Shown here one piece after another: positions 14,136 through 26,282 of a DNA stretch of 64,000 nt. The position numbers and the translations under genes were made by a program. Within the stretch, counting starts at the first letter, position 1; every line of letters starts with the position of its first letter. The notes under the pieces are model-generated. The model saw only the letters and a program-made list of their open reading frames with translations, was not told where the DNA came from and ran no database searches. The stretch lies in NCBI RefSeq assembly GCF_000332235.1, contig NZ_CM001775.1:3706272-3770271 (forward strand), given 5' to 3'. This DNA comes from Geminocystis herdmanii PCC 6308. Its GTDB lineage: Bacteria; Cyanobacteriota; Cyanobacteriia; Cyanobacteriales; Cyanobacteriaceae.

Positions 14136-16067
14136 CTACTTATGAGTAAAATAGGCTTCTAAGGCTTCGGCAACGATTTGATTCATGGCTTTTTTCTGTT
14201 GAGAAGAAGTAGTCTTCAATTTTTGATACCATTCTTCATTAACACTAACACGATGCTCATTACGCTTTTTACGGACTTTTTTGTCTTTTGAAGTCACAGT
14301 TTTTTTCTTCCCAAATTTATATTTATCAGCAAAAGTGCGCAAGGCTTCAAAGCCAACTCGATGACAAAATTGTCCAAATGTTTCGTTATTTTCTTTATTA
14401 TCACGGAAAAAGACGAATAAAGGTTCTAAAAACTTCTCTAACTCATTAACATTCAGTTTATCAACATAAACCTGTGCTAAACGAGTTTGATTTGGACATC
14501 CTCCCAACCACATTTGATAGACGTTGGGAGAGTCACCCACAAAACCTAATTCTGCCATATAAGGGCGGGCGCAACCATTAGGGCATCCTGTCATACGGAT
14601 AACGATGTTTTCTTCTTTCATGCCCAACTTACCTAATAAACTATCAATTCTTTCGAGAATACTAGGTAAAATTCTTTCAGATTCTGTGGTGGCTAATCCA
14701 CAAGTGGGAAGTGCTGGACAAGCCATAGAATAACGGGTAAGATGATTAACATTTTCGGGGTTAATTTCTACTCCATGATCCATTAAAATTTTACTAATAT
14801 CTTCTTGCCATTGGGGTTCAATTTCGTAAAGAATAATATTATGATTAGCGGTTAAGCGAGTTGGCAATTCATACTTAGCAATGACTTTTTTGAGCGCTTC
14901 TTTTAACTGAAAATTTCCTTCATTTTTGACTCGCCCATTTTCAACGGAAATACCAATAAATAGTTTACCATCTCCTTGTTCATTCCATCCTAAATAGTCC
15001 TCATATTTCCATTCGGGAAGTGGTTTAAAAGCCTCTATTTTTTTGCCGAAATATTCTTCTAATTTAGCGGTAAATTTTTCTACTCCCCAATCGTTGATTA
15101 AGTACTTCATCCGTGCGTGACGACGATTTACACGATCGCCATAATCCCGTTGAGTAGCTACAACTGCTTTCACTAAATCAAAAATATCGTCTTTTGCGAC
15201 ATAACCAATCTCATCAGCACTACGGGCAAAGGTTTCTTCTTTACGATGGGTACGCCCTAAACCCCCTCCTGCGAGGATATTAAACCCTTGTAATTTTCCT
15301 TTTTTGTCCACTATAACCACTAAACTAAGATCATGGGTATAGATGTCGATCGAATTATCAGCAGGTACAGTAACGGAACATTTAAACTTACGAGGCATAT
15401 AATGAGTACCATAGATAGGCTCTTCTGAGGCTTCAAAATTAGTACCATTGAGATTTTTTTGACGATAGGCTTTCACTTCGGGCGCTTCCTCCGCCGTAAT
15501 CGCCTTTTCTCCATCTAACCAAATTTCGTAATATGCCCCCGTTTGAGGAGTGAGTAAATCAGCGATTTTGTCTGCATATTCCCAAGCGTATTGATAATCA
15601 GGGCGATTTTTATAGGGTGCAGGAGGCGCCATCACATTGCGGTTTAAGTCACCACAAGCGCCTAAAGTCGAACCCATACTCTTCACAATACTACCGATAA
15701 CAGTCTTGAGATTCTTTTTGAGAATGCCGTGAATTTGATAACCCTGTCTGGTTGTCACCCTTAATGTCTGGTTGCCGTATTCTTCTGAGAGATTTTCAAG
15801 GGCGAGGTAGAGTTGAGGGGGAATAAAACCGCCGGGGTTGCGGGTGCGCAACATAAATTGATAGTCTTTTTCTTGTCCTTTCACTCGATTATCTCGGTTA
15901 TCCTGTTGATATGAACCGTGAAATTTGAGGATTTGAATACCATCTTCGCTAAAATGGGTGGTATCTTGTTGTAATTCTGTAGCTATTGGCTCTCTTAAAA
16001 AGTTACTACGCTCTTTTAAATTCTCGACTTTGGAGGGTTTTTTGGGTGTCGTCACACTAGCTGTCAT
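14136..16067 (-). CDS. sir: Ferredoxin-dependent assimilatory sulfite reductase
   Basis: Sir reduces sulfite to sulfide with six electrons from ferredoxin, for cysteine synthesis. The 643-residue protein has the double ferredoxin-nitrite/sulfite reductase repeats and the siroheme and [4Fe-4S] ligands C450-x5-C456 and C495-x3-C499 (CPALPTC, CPNGC). The arginines and lysines that bind sulfite are in the [10 protein letters not shown] and [10 protein letters not shown] segments. After about residue 586 there is a lysine-rich linker and a helical tail (NEEWYQKLK to EALEAYF) beyond the catalytic core. It is cytoplasmic and stands alone. Confidence 0.95.
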
Positions 16068-17331: not shown

Positions 17332-17441
17332 TTACAAAATATAATACTAAATGAAACTAATGTCCTATAACTTTAGTAAATCAACCTTAGAGAAAGAATT
17401 AGAAGCGATTTGGGAGGATTGGGAGAAATTATTTTTGTTCA

Positions 17442-17903
17442 TTGTTGCATAAACTAGATATTCAAAGTCATGCTTGGGCTTCTCCTCGCACATGGGAAAT
17501 GGCGAATAAGTTACATTTTAATCAAATAGATATTACTCCTGCGGTGGGAGAGGGTGCAAGTGCGGAGTTTAATGCTTTTGTGGCGTTATATAAAAATTTA
17601 CCTGATATTGACGGGATTTTAAAGGGTAAAGGGGAAAAAATCGACTTTCCCTCCGAAGCATCTACCCGTTATGCTACTGCCATCGCCCTTGCTATTAGGG
17701 GGAAAAATGCTGATGAAGCGTTAAATGGTTTTGAATGGTTAAGTCAAAAGGCAACAAAGGAATGGGTACAATTATTTGCAGTGGATTTAATTCGTCAAAT
17801 GCAAAGCAAAGGGCAAATGGGGGCATTAGGTAAGTTGATTAAAGAAAATAAGGAGTTACAAAAATTCTTTAAAGATTTCCGTGATTTAGTGGGAATAATA
17901 TAG
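17442..17903 (+). pseudogene. MoxR-like AAA+ ATPase, C-terminal fragment
   Basis: Only the lid and C-terminal helices of a MoxR-type AAA+ ATPase are left. The conserved SPRTWEM segment (sensor-2 region) is at residues 14-20, but Walker A, Walker B and sensor 1 are all missing; about 150 residues remain of the usual 320 or more. The frame opens with a TTG, with no good start. A short upstream frame at 17351-17452 ends in another frame. MoxR ATPases work with VWA-type partners, and a DUF2201 VWA protein follows at 18424, so this was probably a working pair once. Confidence 0.65.
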
Positions 17904-17980
17904 AGTTTTTTTCAAAATAACACTTCAGTGCTTGTTATCTTTATATATATAGTGAATCTTAAATAAATTTATTTAAAACG

Positions 17981-18202
17981 ATGAAGTCATTGACAGATTA
18001 TACGATTATAGTTAAACCTGATGATAACAATACTTTTGTTGCTTATGTTCCAGCAATTAAGGGTTGTCATGGTTGGGGTGAAAGTGAAGAGGAAGCAAGA
18101 AGTGAGTTAAATAATGTTTTCTCAATGATTCAGGAAGAATATCTTGAGCAAGGAAAAATATTACCTAATGATGTCGAAATAAAAGTTGTAGCTCATGCCT
18201 AA
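17981..18202 (+). CDS. hicB: HicB-family antitoxin
   Basis: The 73-residue protein has the HicB partial RNase-H-like fold: YTIIVKPDDNNTFVAYVP and GCHGWGESEEEA are the typical strand-helix blocks. There is no obvious DNA-binding tail, as in the short HicB class. It neutralises the HicA mRNA interferase and would be cytoplasmic. Its stop codon overlaps the ATG of the downstream hicA, the standard gene order for this class, but hicA is frameshifted here, so HicB may act alone as a leftover antitoxin. Confidence 0.85.
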   Translation: MKSLTDYTIIVKPDDNNTFVAYVPAIKGCHGWGESEEEARSELNNVFSMIQEEYLEQGKILPNDVEIKVVAHA

Positions 18203-18408
18203 GTTTTGTAAAAACTATAGAAAAAGTAGCAAAAAAATTGGGTTTTCAAAAAGTTCGTCAAAAAGGCAGTCATGCCCGTTGGCAACATATTGACGGAAGG
18301 GCGACAACAATTCCTATTCATGGTAATGCAGAAATTGGCGGTTGGTTATTCAAGGAAATTTTAAGTCAGTTAGGCGTGACAGAAGAAGAATTTAACCAAC
18401 TTAAATAA
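18195..18408 (+). pseudogene. hicA: HicA toxin, inactivated by a one-base frameshift
   Basis: The ATG at 18195 overlaps the hicB stop. The first codons read MPKFCK and then a five-A run (18210-18214) shifts the frame; with one A fewer the protein would continue TIEKVAKKLGFQKVRQKGSH and on through ATTIPIHGNAEIGGWLF to a TAA at 18406. That is a complete HicA, including the catalytic histidine of GSHARW. The total of 214 bases is one more than a multiple of three. A sequencing error in the A run cannot be excluded, nor can programmed slippage. Confidence 0.8.
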
Positions 18409-19623: not shown

Positions 19624-19767
19624 AGAATATTTATGACTTTAATGAGCAAGGGATAAAAATATCTCTCTACAAATAACTTAAATACTAACATTGTCTAACT
19701 CTTGTTCAGTCTTTCTTTTTTTATGGAATAATAAATTATCTAAGCCTTGATGAATGGGAGAAAAGTC

Positions 19768-19842
19768 TTGACTTGGAAGATTAGCATTGATTCACGGGCG
19801 GAGAAGGAATTAAAAAAACTGGATAAATTAGCGCAAACATGA
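19768..19842 (+). pseudogene. RelE/ParE toxin N-terminal stub
   Basis: From a TTG at 19768, 24 codons read TWKISIDSRAEKELKKLDKL, which is the N-terminal strand and first helix of a RelE-type toxin. The frame then stops at TGA (19840-19842), overlapping the ATG of the exonuclease gene in an ATGA arrangement. The rest of the toxin is lost. On the minus strand just upstream, 19690-19770 encodes another small remnant of unknown origin. Confidence 0.55.
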
Positions 19843-22364
19843 ATTTTATCGTTATCGATACCGAAGGAAGCGACACCCTCAGAGAAATAGCTATTATCAA
19901 TCAAGACGGAAAGTTAATTTACGAAGCCTTTGTCAAAACAAGAGGGAGTACAACAAAAAGACTAAATCACAAAGCCTTAACAGAAATCATTAAAGACTTA
20001 CAAAACATCTTACCGAATAAAACCATTATCTGTCATAACGCTCAACACGATCGAACTATTATTAAAAATAGTTTCCGCCGATGCCGCCAACAATTACCTC
20101 AAGCACAATTTATTTGCACCCTTGAATTAGCACAACAAAAATACCCCAAACTTAATAGTTATCAACTGGGCAACCTCTGCCGTAGATTCTTCCTGCAAGT
20201 GGATAATCTTTATTTTCAAAAAGTTCAAGCCCATCGCGCTCGTTATGATGCACAATTTACCTTACAATTATACTTATACCTAACTTCTCACTCTCAAATA
20301 GAAAATAATACACCTATGGCAGTCGAACAAATTGTAACAACACCATCAGTAAAAAATCCCTTTAGTAGCAGTCGTGTGGATGATCCCTATCAAAATCATT
20401 TAGACTTTGAACATATATACAGAAGCCAATTCTATCACCTAAAATCCCTAGTGGAAGAAATCAAGCAAGATAGAGAAAACCAACAGAGTCGGGGTGCATT
20501 GATACTCGGAGAAGCAGGAAGTGGAAAAACTCACCTGATGATGCGGTTAGCCAAAGCCACATTAATAACCCATCGCCTCTTATATGTGCGTCAACCCAAC
20601 AATGCTAACTCCGTAATGCACCACATTTACTCAAGGATATTAGAAAGTTTTGCCCAAAGAGTTGACATCGAAGGCAGTCAACGCACCCAATTAGATTTAC
20701 TCTTAGCTCGTGTTTTTACTAATATTTTAAAAATAATTCAACAGGAAGATAAAACCCAAAAATTAGAGCAAATAATTGAACAATTACAAAATGATAGTCT
20801 AATTTTGTTCGATCGATTAGGAGGAGAAAATACTCAAAAAAATAGGGATAATTGGCGATATATAGAAATTAAAATAACTCAATGGTGGGAAAGTAATTAT
20901 TCTGCTAGTGGTTACGCACCCAATATTCTTAAAGGTATCATCAAATATTGTAGCTATAGAGATCCTAATATCAAAGATAAAATCAGAAGATGGTTAACAG
21001 GCAATGAATTAGACAGTCAAATTTGTGAGGATATAGGCTTAAATAATTGGCAAGAAGATAATCTTAGCAGAGAAGATTTTGCCTTAGAAGGAATCCGTTT
21101 ATTTGGGCAATTATCTACCCTTGATGAACCATTAATTATTATCTTTGATCAACTTGAATATCTTATTCATCAACCCGATATTCTCACCAGTTTTGGCAAT
21201 GCTTTAAGGGAAATTATAACCCATGTTCCCCATTCCTTAATTGTAGTTAATCTTTTCCCGGATCGTTGGCAAAGTTTTCAGGGGTATTTTGATGATTCTA
21301 CCATTGACAGATTATCTATTAATCAACTAATTTTACAAACTCCTTCGGCGGATGAATTAAGAAGAATGTTAGCAATGAAATGCAAAAAAGTAGGCACAAC
21401 TTTAGAGACATTATTTCAACCCCAAGATTTACAAGTAATTTTGAGACAATTTTCCATCAGAAAAGTAATTAATAAAGCATCAGACTATTATCATTATCGA
21501 GTTTTAAACTTACCTTTACCCGAAGAATTACCATCTAAAAACAATATCTCTGTAGAAGAAAAATTAGTTAGCTTAGAAAATGCTTTAAGGCAAATTGCCC
21601 ATATTTGCAAACCGTTATTAACTGATAATAACGTAGAATTATTAATACCAGAAAACCAAATTAATGTTAATGTTAAAAGTCAATTAGAAGAGGAAAACGA
21701 AGAATTTAATCTTACTATTGAAATGAAAGATAAAAACACAATAAAAATTAATAATATTAAACAGACATCTTCAGAAAATAATGTACTCATATCTGTAGAA
21801 AACACCATTTTAAATTACCTAGAAGAAAATGAAGGTTTAATTGCTGACAATTATCACAATCCTTATATTATTACTGATGATGATGAGTATGGAAAATTAG
21901 TAACAATTATAGAGGCATTTAAAAGCTATGATTCAAGTATAAATATGGATCATTTAACTTTAGGGAGAAAGGTAATTCCAGAAAATTTATTAATCAACAA
22001 AAATAAGCTAAAATTAGCAGTTGGTTTTCTGAATATTGGTGGTTCAGCTTTTACTAATAGAATCAAAAATTTTAATCAATTGGTTATATCTAATCGTAAT
22101 ATTAAATTTTATTTATTAAGAGATGAAAAAGAGGGTTACATTACTGGAAAAATAGGATTACAAGAAATTGATAAGTTAAATTATACTGAAAATGGCTTAT
22201 TTTTAATGATAGATAAAGAAGCAAGAGTTATTTTTGAATTAATTTATAAAATGATCGTAGCAATTAATCAAAATGATTTAGAAGTTAGTATAGTTGATGC
22301 TATTCAAGTTGTTTTAAATAGGTATGCAAATTACTGGTTAATCAGAGAGATTTTTGCTACTTAA
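19839..22364 (+). CDS. DnaQ-like 3'-5' exonuclease fused to P-loop ATPase
   Basis: The 841-residue protein has two recognisable parts. Residues 1-150 are a DEDDh exonuclease: VIDTEG (D7, E9), HNAQHD (D71) and HRARYD (H132, D137) supply all five catalytic positions. Residues about 190-560 form a P-loop ATPase with Walker A GEAGSGKT (224-231) and Walker B LIIIFDQLE (432-440), the spacing fitting large STAND or Orc/Cdc6-like ATPases. The C-terminal 280 residues are unassigned and acidic in the middle. No ribosome-binding site is seen, and ATG overlaps the upstream stop, suggesting coupling. Position beside MoxR/DUF2201 remnants and TA modules suggests a nucleic-acid conflict or repair role; that is inference. 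Confidence 0.8.
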   Translation: MNFIVIDTEGSDTLREIAIINQDGKLIYEAFVKTRGSTTKRLNHKALTEIIKDLQNILPNKTIICHNAQHDRTIIKNSFRRCRQQLPQAQFICTLELAQQKYPKLNSYQLGNLCRRFFLQVDNLYFQKVQAHRARYDAQFTLQLYLYLTSHSQIENNTPMAVEQIVTTPSVKNPFSSSRVDDPYQNHLDFEHIYRSQFYHLKSLVEEIKQDRENQQSRGALILGEAGSGKTHLMMRLAKATLITHRLLYVRQPNNANSVMHHIYSRILESFAQRVDIEGSQRTQLDLLLARVFTNILKIIQQEDKTQKLEQIIEQLQNDSLILFDRLGGENTQKNRDNWRYIEIKITQWWESNYSASGYAPNILKGIIKYCSYRDPNIKDKIRRWLTGNELDSQICEDIGLNNWQEDNLSREDFALEGIRLFGQLSTLDEPLIIIFDQLEYLIHQPDILTSFGNALREIITHVPHSLIVVNLFPDRWQSFQGYFDDSTIDRLSINQLILQTPSADELRRMLAMKCKKVGTTLETLFQPQDLQVILRQFSIRKVINKASDYYHYRVLNLPLPEELPSKNNISVEEKLVSLENALRQIAHICKPLLTDNNVELLIPENQINVNVKSQLEEENEEFNLTIEMKDKNTIKINNIKQTSSENNVLISVENTILNYLEENEGLIADNYHNPYIITDDDEYGKLVTIIEAFKSYDSSINMDHLTLGRKVIPENLLINKNKLKLAVGFLNIGGSAFTNRIKNFNQLVISNRNIKFYLLRDEKEGYITGKIGLQEIDKLNYTENGLFLMIDKEARVIFELIYKMIVAINQNDLEVSIVDAIQVVLNRYANYWLIREIFAT

Positions 22365-25791: not shown

Positions 25792-26040
25792 CTAATTATT
25801 AGGAATAAAATTAGAGGGGAAAGGAATATTATCACCATATTCCCATGCAGTTTCTAACCATGATTGTTTGGCATCTAATATATTTTCCATCGCTTCTTCT
25901 AATGTCTCACCTTCAGAAATACAACCTTCTAAATCTTGAATTATTACAGTATATCCGCCTTCATTTTCGGGATAAAAAGTAATAGGATAATTTAAGTTTA
26001 AATAATCTTTTAATGTGGTTAATTTATCTTGAGTTTTCAT
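25792..26040 (-). CDS. hicB: HicB-family antitoxin
   Basis: The 82-residue protein matches the HicB antitoxin fold: YPITFYPENEGGYTVIIQDL and GCISEGETLEEAMENILDA are the characteristic blocks. It is encoded five bases after the hicA stop, in the hicA-hicB order found in many such loci, and is likely cotranscribed with it. Unlike the other two HicAB loci in this window, this pair looks intact. Confidence 0.88.
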   Translation of the reverse strand: MKTQDKLTTLKDYLNLNYPITFYPENEGGYTVIIQDLEGCISEGETLEEAMENILDAKQSWLETAWEYGDNIPFPSNFIPNN

Positions 26041-26045
26041 TGAGT

Positions 26046-26282
26046 TTATTCTCCTAATTTTAATAACATTACTATTTGTTTAAGATAAGTTCTTTTAACG
26101 GTTTTACCGCCTTTTTTGGGTACGGTTATTTTCTGTCCTTGATTATTCCTAAAAGTATGATGACTACCCTTTGCTGATACTTCTTGAAAGCCAAAATTAG
26201 TAAGAATATAATAGACATCATCATAACTTAATTCTGGTGGATCTCTTAATAATTTATCGATTAATTTTTCTAACTTTCCCAT
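26046..26282 (-). CDS. hicA: HicA-family mRNA interferase toxin
   Basis: HicA folds like a double-stranded-RNA-binding domain and cleaves mRNA. The 78-residue protein has LTNFGFQEVSAKGSHHTFRN, with the catalytic histidine in GSHH, followed by ITVPKKGGKTVKRTYLKQIV, as in the family. The first 25 residues form an extension longer than in minimal HicA proteins. The gene precedes hicB on the same strand. Confidence 0.88.
   Translation of the reverse strand: MGKLEKLIDKLLRDPPELSYDDVYYILTNFGFQEVSAKGSHHTFRNNQGQKITVPKKGGKTVKRTYLKQIVMLLKLGE

Follow-up and report, generated by a model that had tools for sequence, protein, structure and literature searches.

A DEDDh exonuclease fused to an Orc/Cdc6-like AAA+ ATPase in Geminocystis herdmanii: a candidate single-gene nuclease against mobile elements in cyanobacteria

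A stretch of 64,000 nucleotides from the cyanobacterium Geminocystis herdmanii PCC 6308 (contig NZ_CM001775.1, positions 3,706,272 to 3,770,271; the whole stretch is called the window here), taken from a genome that forms a single contig of 4.26 Mb, was studied for one gene that encodes an exonuclease and an ATPase in a single protein. The initial annotation of the DNA had described this open reading frame (ORF) as a DEDDh exonuclease fused to a P-loop ATPase, with five catalytic residues, Walker A and B motifs and an unassigned C-terminal region of 280 residues. The frame, the fusion and the motifs were all found exactly as described, and the C-terminal region was seen to consist of a variable linker followed by a folded domain. 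The features of the gene are as follows.

19839-22364, plus strand: fusion gene for a DEDDh exonuclease, an Orc/Cdc6-like AAA+ ATPase and a C-terminal domain; 841 amino acids (P0001), ATG start, stop codon included
19839-20288, plus strand: DEDDh 3'-5' exonuclease domain, residues 1-150; catalytic D7, E9, D71, H132 and D137; Pfam RNase_T 1.2e-10
20355-20399, plus strand: conserved linker NPFSSSRVDDPYQNH, residues 173-187, joining exonuclease and ATPase (alignments, profile comparison)
20394-21503, plus strand: AAA+ (Orc/Cdc6- or STAND-like) ATPase domain, residues 186-555; Pfam AAA_16 2e-8; hhalign E 2.7e-21 against the ATPase of FtsK-type operons
20508-20531, plus strand: Walker A motif GEAGSGKT, residues 224-231 (sequence, homologue alignment)
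21132-21158, plus strand: Walker B region LIIIFDQLE, residues 432-440 (sequence, homologue alignment)
21504-21773, plus strand: variable linker, residues 556-645; mean pairwise identity 0.23 over residues 556-650
21774-22361, plus strand: folded C-terminal domain, residues 646-841 (AlphaFold2 secondary structure and predicted local distance difference test score, pLDDT, by block; weak collinear match to ATPase-only relatives)

The Pfam search assigned residues 6-145 to RNase_T/exonuclease and residues 202-324 to AAA_16, both matches exceeding the curated cut-offs, while weaker matches to nSTAND5 (28.4 bits, cut-off 34) and nSTAND1 (21.3 bits, cut-off 27.1) fell short of theirs. No helicase profile scored above its cut-off in the protein, and no tetratricopeptide repeat (TPR) or other repeat family was found by Pfam at the C terminus. 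The nearest NCBIfam relatives of the exonuclease domain were the PolC, DinG and DnaQ models; of the PADLOC models, DEDDh and PDC-S48 matched the exonuclease part and mad8, weakly, the ATPase part.

Conservation was judged from 46 distinct homologous sequences, each of at least 740 amino acids. The five catalytic residues of the exonuclease were invariant in all 46, as were G224, G227, G229 and K230 of Walker A (at residue 231, 45 sequences have T and one has S) and D437, Q438, E440, R491 and R541. The above-cut-off Pfam matches and these invariant positions together indicate that the exonuclease-ATPase architecture is not due to chance, and by its profile match and motifs the central domain is an AAA+ core in which both Walker motifs are intact. 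Mean pairwise identity was 0.44 in the exonuclease, 0.52 in the ATPase and 0.41 over residues 651-815. Ratios of nonsynonymous to synonymous substitution rates (dN/dS), calculated against three close homologues (in genomes G003, G011 and G008), were 0.11-0.20 for the exonuclease, 0.10-0.15 for the ATPase and 0.20-0.28 for the C terminus, values that indicate purifying selection in each domain; both enzymes are maintained.

By its catalytic residues, its Pfam match and its structure match the N-terminal domain is a DEDDh (DnaQ-like) 3'-5' exonuclease. It was matched to DNA polymerase III epsilon (Z 14.0 over 139 residues, root-mean-square deviation 3.1), and further DEDDh matches were Cap18 of E. 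coli, a Cas1:Cas2-DEDDh complex and the ribonucleases RNase T, Orn, REXO2 and ISG20. The best 50 matches of an ATPase model with a predicted template modelling score (pTM) of 0.42 were AAA+ proteins, NSF/Sec18, ORC and Cdc48 appearing together at Z 12.3-13.6. These structure-alignment (VIA-align) lists covered the exonuclease and the ATPase, the C-terminal domain lying outside them. Foldseek with the full model returned DinG first (E 1.8e-5), together with BrxC and ORC chains (E 0.003-0.02); all such matches are leads, not proof. Residues 646-841 rank among the better-modelled parts of a poor AlphaFold2 model, in which their secondary-structure order is alpha-beta-beta-beta-alpha-beta, and as modelled the domain is compatible with an inactive restriction endonuclease (REase)-like domain.

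The relationships of the ATPase were studied through relatives that have no exonuclease domain. In 60 related genomes, the source genome included, 36 gave a match at E 0.001; 14 of these carry the DEDDh-fused form, that of G014 being broken across contigs, and the remaining matches were weak, to the ATPase part, and mostly to frames of ~640-740 amino acids. Six such ATPase-only loci were laid out (L036-L041). A protein of ~270 amino acids precedes the ATPase-only gene in all six, for which Pfam gave a weak winged-helix match below cut-off at L036 and none at L039. In five of the six loci the ATPase-only gene is followed by a relative of the 885-amino-acid L036 protein, and the three downstream partner proteins that were scanned all contain FtsK_alpha, FtsK_SpoIIIE and PDDEXK_1, two of them also the 3'-5' exonuclease domain DNA_pol_A_exo1. 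The ATPase-only gene stands in tandem at two loci, with three copies at L039 (5689-15881) and two at L040 (6235-11463), and is single in the other four.

An hhalign comparison of the 46 fused sequences with 38 ATPase-only sequences, the latter drawn from cyanobacterial operons of that domain make-up and not from the set of PMC10853773, gave a probability of 99.4 and an E value of 2.7e-21, collinear over fused-family columns 156-775. The NPF at the beginning of the linker NPFSSSRVDDPYQNH was also seen in the ATPase-only relatives. The C-terminal domains alone aligned collinearly but weakly (E 0.002, probability 14, with mismatched controls at E 0.024, 0.3 and 0.5), the same comparison with older, smaller alignments failed (E 0.18-0.22), and the full-length alignment stops at position 566 of 687 of the ATPase-only relatives, the last ~120 residues having no aligned counterpart. 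By profile comparison of the full-length families, the window ATPase and that of the FtsK-type operons are homologous. A search of PDB sequences with the ATPase-only profile returned nothing at E 0.1.

This homology, and the exonuclease domain in two of the three operon partner proteins, suggests that the ATPase lineage has been paired with 3'-5' exonucleases twice: in cis, as the fused DEDDh domain, and in trans, as the RNase D-type domain on the FtsK protein. The source genome lacks the exonuclease-PDDEXK-FtsK protein, a search for it giving no more than an RNase D-like gene and a different FtsK match, and it lacks both the ~270-amino-acid partner and the ATPase-only relative. Of 388 genomes of the cyanobacterial class, 37 have the fused form and 64 (at E 1e-40) the ATPase-only form; eight genomes share both against 6.1 expected (Fisher p 0.36), a co-occurrence near chance that gives no sign of dependence of the fused form on the FtsK-type operon. 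In G001, of the same genus, a stand-alone RNase D-type (DNA_pol_A_exo1) exonuclease gene (L033 11100-12005, minus strand) lies 123 nucleotides (nt) upstream of the DEDDh-ATPase gene; its domain is the one fused to FtsK in the ATPase-only operons.

The HerA/FtsK-capture systems are set out, in the section of PMC10853773 on them, as predicted anti-element systems with an Orc/CDC6 AAA+ ATPase, an inactive REase that follows the ATPase core, a winged helix-turn-helix (wHTH) C-terminal to that inactive REase, and an active REase; a 3'-5' exonuclease may be fused to their HerA/FtsK part. The cyanobacterial exonuclease-PDDEXK-FtsK operons resemble these systems as that section describes them, matched by domains and not by sequences. 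Homology to the ATPase of these operons, of a kind there called Orc/CDC6, suggests that the window ATPase may belong to the Orc/Cdc6 clade. The fusion shares with the capture systems a homologous ATPase core, a tie to a 3'-5' exonuclease and a mobile habit. It differs in being one gene, with the DEDDh domain on the N terminus of the ATPase itself, and the window offers it no partner of the HerA/FtsK, active REase or wHTH kind; in the cyanobacterial FtsK operons, in contrast, the exonuclease is of another type (DNA_pol_A_exo1) and is carried on the FtsK protein. No statement of a DEDDh domain fused to the N terminus of an Orc/CDC6 ATPase was found in the capture-system section of PMC10853773. 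The initial annotation had recognised no described system with this exact DEDDh-AAA+ architecture, and a literature search likewise found no description of it, supplements, where a mention is possible, being outside the search.

Three other families invite comparison. The BrxC/DUF499 ATPases of BREX (PMC12839542) probably belong with the window ATPase in one broad Orc/Cdc6 clade; an ATPase-only relative matched Pfam BrxC_BrxD at E 0.0005, below cut-off, and Foldseek on the window model listed BrxC chains (probability 0.95-0.99, E 0.003-0.005; PDB 9zll and 9zdx being named as the BrxC comparison). However, the window protein has an N-terminal exonuclease and 841 amino acids against 1200-1300 for BrxC, and no BrxC or DUF6079 entry was among the 15 Pfam families that it matched at E up to 1, so that by these tests it is not BrxC. 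DinG and related exonuclease-helicases (PDB 8zef, 9ii8), the best Foldseek match, also carry a DEDDh exonuclease and an ATPase in one chain, but the window ATPase is AAA+ (Orc/Cdc6-like) and not a superfamily 2 helicase. Nhi is presumably another exonuclease-helicase of this kind. STAND/Avs-type NTPases have an N-terminal nuclease effector, a central NTPase and a C-terminal domain. The fusion protein has the same domain order and the weak nSTAND5 and nSTAND1 matches; it differs from them in that those scores lie under the curated cut-offs and in having no C-terminal TPR or repeat match.

The presence of the fused form in 37 of the 388 genomes is patchy. The count was 41 before G374, G395, G240 and G149 were removed as short or cross matches, and some of the 37 are split or partial, for example G087, G155 and G289. 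No copy was found in G013, a single-contig genome of the same family as the source. The source genome itself holds a 47-amino-acid piece of a decayed second copy between two long open frames:

L002 1501-1704 (G000:C1 3554318-3554521): decayed remnant of a second DEDDh-ATPase copy, flanked by two long open frames

Sulfite reductase (window 14136-16067) served as the control for divergence. Its identity to the window protein is 87% in G001, of the same genus, and 69% in G031, of another family; for the fused protein the values are 44% and 59%. In a tree of the fused proteins (quick search, with support from the Shimodaira-Hasegawa-like approximate likelihood-ratio test, SH-aLRT), G031 is sister to the four-member group of the window, inside family f1, and G008 and G011, of another genus, are closer to the window protein than are G001, G002 and G004 of the same genus. 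The divergence of the fused protein thus partly conflicts with host kinship, and on these comparisons its distribution appears partly horizontal. At least 14 copies lie on contigs of at least 2.7 Mb and are therefore chromosomal. Of 72,556 plasmid records nine matched, seven of them over most of the protein. All nine were cyanobacterial, as were all four loci found on genome contigs by a scan that finds close relatives only.

Six of the nine plasmid records were examined; H5, which equals H6 in length and identity, and H8 and H9, whose matches are partial or split, were left aside. All six neighbourhoods, which represent five independent contexts, contain defence genes, known or predicted. The Calothrix NIES-22 plasmid has DrmA, DrmB and DrmC (DISARM) and GmrSD upstream of the fusion gene, and the Tolypothrix PCC 7910 plasmid, unlike the window, has HerA and NurA beside it, upstream. 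On the Nostoc HK-01 and C057 plasmids a common GmrSD gene lies 30-33 nt downstream, 80-90% identical between the two and interrupted in C057 by an annotated transposase. Downstream of the fusion gene there are Thoeris ThsB and ThsA on the Synechococcus elongatus PCC 11801 plasmid and, at 45 nt, an MmeI-type restriction-modification protein on the S. elongatus IITB5 plasmid. The four Nostocales plasmid proteins are 74-86% identical to each other in surroundings that are mostly different. The control consisted of 160 kb elsewhere on the four Nostocales plasmids, the S. elongatus plasmids being left out; 127 of its 129 ORFs of at least 100 amino acids were scanned, two of more than 1300 amino acids being omitted. 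At E 1e-20 these 127 matched only Cas12f-type models (all from one gene, probably an annotated TnpB), TPR models and one Csx1, and relatives of the defence neighbours were not found by tblastn in the same 160-kb control segments.

The evidence leans towards the fusion gene encoding a solo, ATP-dependent nuclease of cyanobacteria that acts against mobile elements. The conflict role that the initial annotation had suggested is partly supported, by a patchy and partly horizontal distribution, by carriage on plasmids beside defence genes and by the kinship of the ATPase to predicted anti-element systems. The protein is best read as a compact derivative of the Orc/Cdc6-type ATPases on which the predicted HerA/FtsK-capture defence systems run. 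More tentatively, and as a proposal that is plausible rather than probable, it may be a previously undescribed one-protein immune nuclease, so far of cyanobacteria only, in which an origin-recognition-type AAA+ ATPase would serve as the invader-DNA sensor and loader for the fused DEDDh exonuclease: a minimal HerA/FtsK-capture machine, carried by plasmids beside DISARM, Thoeris, GmrSD or restriction-modification genes.

Several observations weigh against a defence role or the models behind it. The window gene and the chromosomal copies mostly adjoin ordinary genes, among the neighbours identified, which by Pfam include acetate kinase, ProRS, ClpB and glycogen debranching enzyme. PADLOC at E 1e-20 gave 79 models for 148 neighbours (37 loci) and 60 for 148 random ORFs, a comparison that counts models and, as the best 25 of 79 and the best 25 of 60 are listed, does not give numbers of member ORFs; there is no clear excess of defence genes around chromosomal copies. 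This test left out L024, L025, L100, L107, L109, L111, L112, L115 and L116 as fragments or near-copies and kept the plasmid loci L051-L056 apart. Among the matches listed for the 148 neighbours are a type I methyltransferase (1.2e-193) and a TnsB-type transposase, the latter fitting a Mu-type transposase near the L088 copy (L088 12033-14129). In the tree, families f1 (G031 excepted), f33 and f25 hold together, and since much of the tree follows host families, vertical descent with loss explains part of the patchiness. The plasmid sample is small, and its control segments include, by annotation, a NACHT NTPase, EVE-domain and HNH proteins and another DUF87 gene in Tolypothrix and a 'restriction endonuclease' in Nostoc C057. 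The fused protein has no match in 50,697 phage records, and viral contigs gave a single short P-loop match only; on these results a phage origin was rejected. Finally, with a mean pLDDT of 54 and a pTM of 0.31 (4 sequences), the whole-protein AlphaFold2 model is weak, as is the model of the ATPase domain (pTM 0.42).

Could the protein instead be a non-essential DNA-repair or recombination factor, whose ATPase loads the DEDDh exonuclease on damaged or stalled DNA and which is gained and lost by habitat? Chromosomal copies do lie amid housekeeping genes with no clear defence enrichment (aspartokinase, trpB, dnaN beside two copies, recN beside one and mfd near another, identified by eye from translations), the nearest relatives by sequence or structure are the DEDDh domains of PolC, epsilon and DinG, and purifying selection would fit. 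However, the restriction to 37 of 388 genomes, the presence close to defence genes on plasmids, both conjugative and small, and the decayed copy in the source genome make this unlikely. Moreover, the 52 loci laid out, which include some fragments, near-copies and one plasmid twice, have no universal neighbour and no conserved position. The gene is thus not a housekeeping gene by synteny, and the possibility, raised with the initial annotation, that homologues are syntenic with housekeeping genes only did not hold, even though most of the chromosomal neighbours identified are ordinary.

Another reading is a factor in plasmid maintenance or in competition between plasmids: it would destroy rivals or resolve intermediates of replication, and would have been domesticated on chromosomes. 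Orc/Cdc6-type ATPases are part of the replication machinery, and on two S. elongatus plasmids whose downstream cargo differs, the fusion gene and parA are divergent, with 128 nt between them in both cases:

L055 4593-4722 and L056 13857-13986: shared gap between parA and the fusion gene on two S. elongatus plasmids, divergent, 128 nt

Set against this are the chromosomal location of at least 14 copies and the lack of any annotated par gene in the stretches around the four Nostocales plasmid copies, and we regard such a role as rather improbable. An RNA-directed effector, in which the DEDDh domain would cut back RNA in the manner of RNase T or oligoribonuclease once the ATPase senses infection, and so halt growth, would fit the DEDDh RNases among the structural matches and the effector, NTPase and C-terminal domain order that we take to be that of STAND effectors, but is very hard to credit given that the closest sequence matches are DNA-polymerase and DinG exonucleases and that the domains encoded by the related operons are those of a DNA translocase and of DNA nucleases.

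Other features of the surroundings were noted. Of the loci laid out, only those of the window, G008 and G011 have a DUF2201/VWA gene and a MoxR-like ATPase gene upstream of the fusion gene, and for this reason the pair was rejected as a system partner. In the window, at 17427-18408, only a C-terminal part of the MoxR-like gene is left, which corresponds to residues 183-340 of the 340 in G011. It is separated from DUF2201 by a HicB/HicA pair; in G008 and G011 the two genes adjoin. A short frame at window 19746-19841 stands directly before the fusion gene, its stop overlapping the ATG of the latter; we take it to be the start of a RelE toxin after the end of RelB. G011 carries two other small ORFs in this gap, which therefore looks like an insertion hotspot. 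A second pair of small genes, presumably HicB/HicA-like, is found on the minus strand at window 25792-26282, inside an apparent polysaccharide-export region, as we assume it to be. Elsewhere, a RAMP-superfamily gene (type III CRISPR-like; L110 7091-8659) adjoins the L110 copy and a gene for a putative Uma2 endonuclease the L091 copy.

For an anti-element nuclease, we infer a role in defence, a DNA and not an RNA substrate, an ATPase that assembles on DNA, and what the C-terminal domain does. The AAA+ domain would assemble on or around invading DNA, whether plasmid, phage or transfer intermediate, and the C-terminal domain, probably a dead restriction-enzyme-like fold, may help to recognise the target or a partner. 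ATP-driven remodelling would then give the fused DEDDh exonuclease free 3' ends from which to degrade the invader or its replication intermediates. If the fusion protein were protective alone, it would make the Orc/Cdc6-based conflict systems, a large class with multi-gene members that are difficult to reconstitute, accessible through a single gene, and would put to the test the idea that Orc-type ATPases act as DNA-loading sensors for bacterial nucleases.

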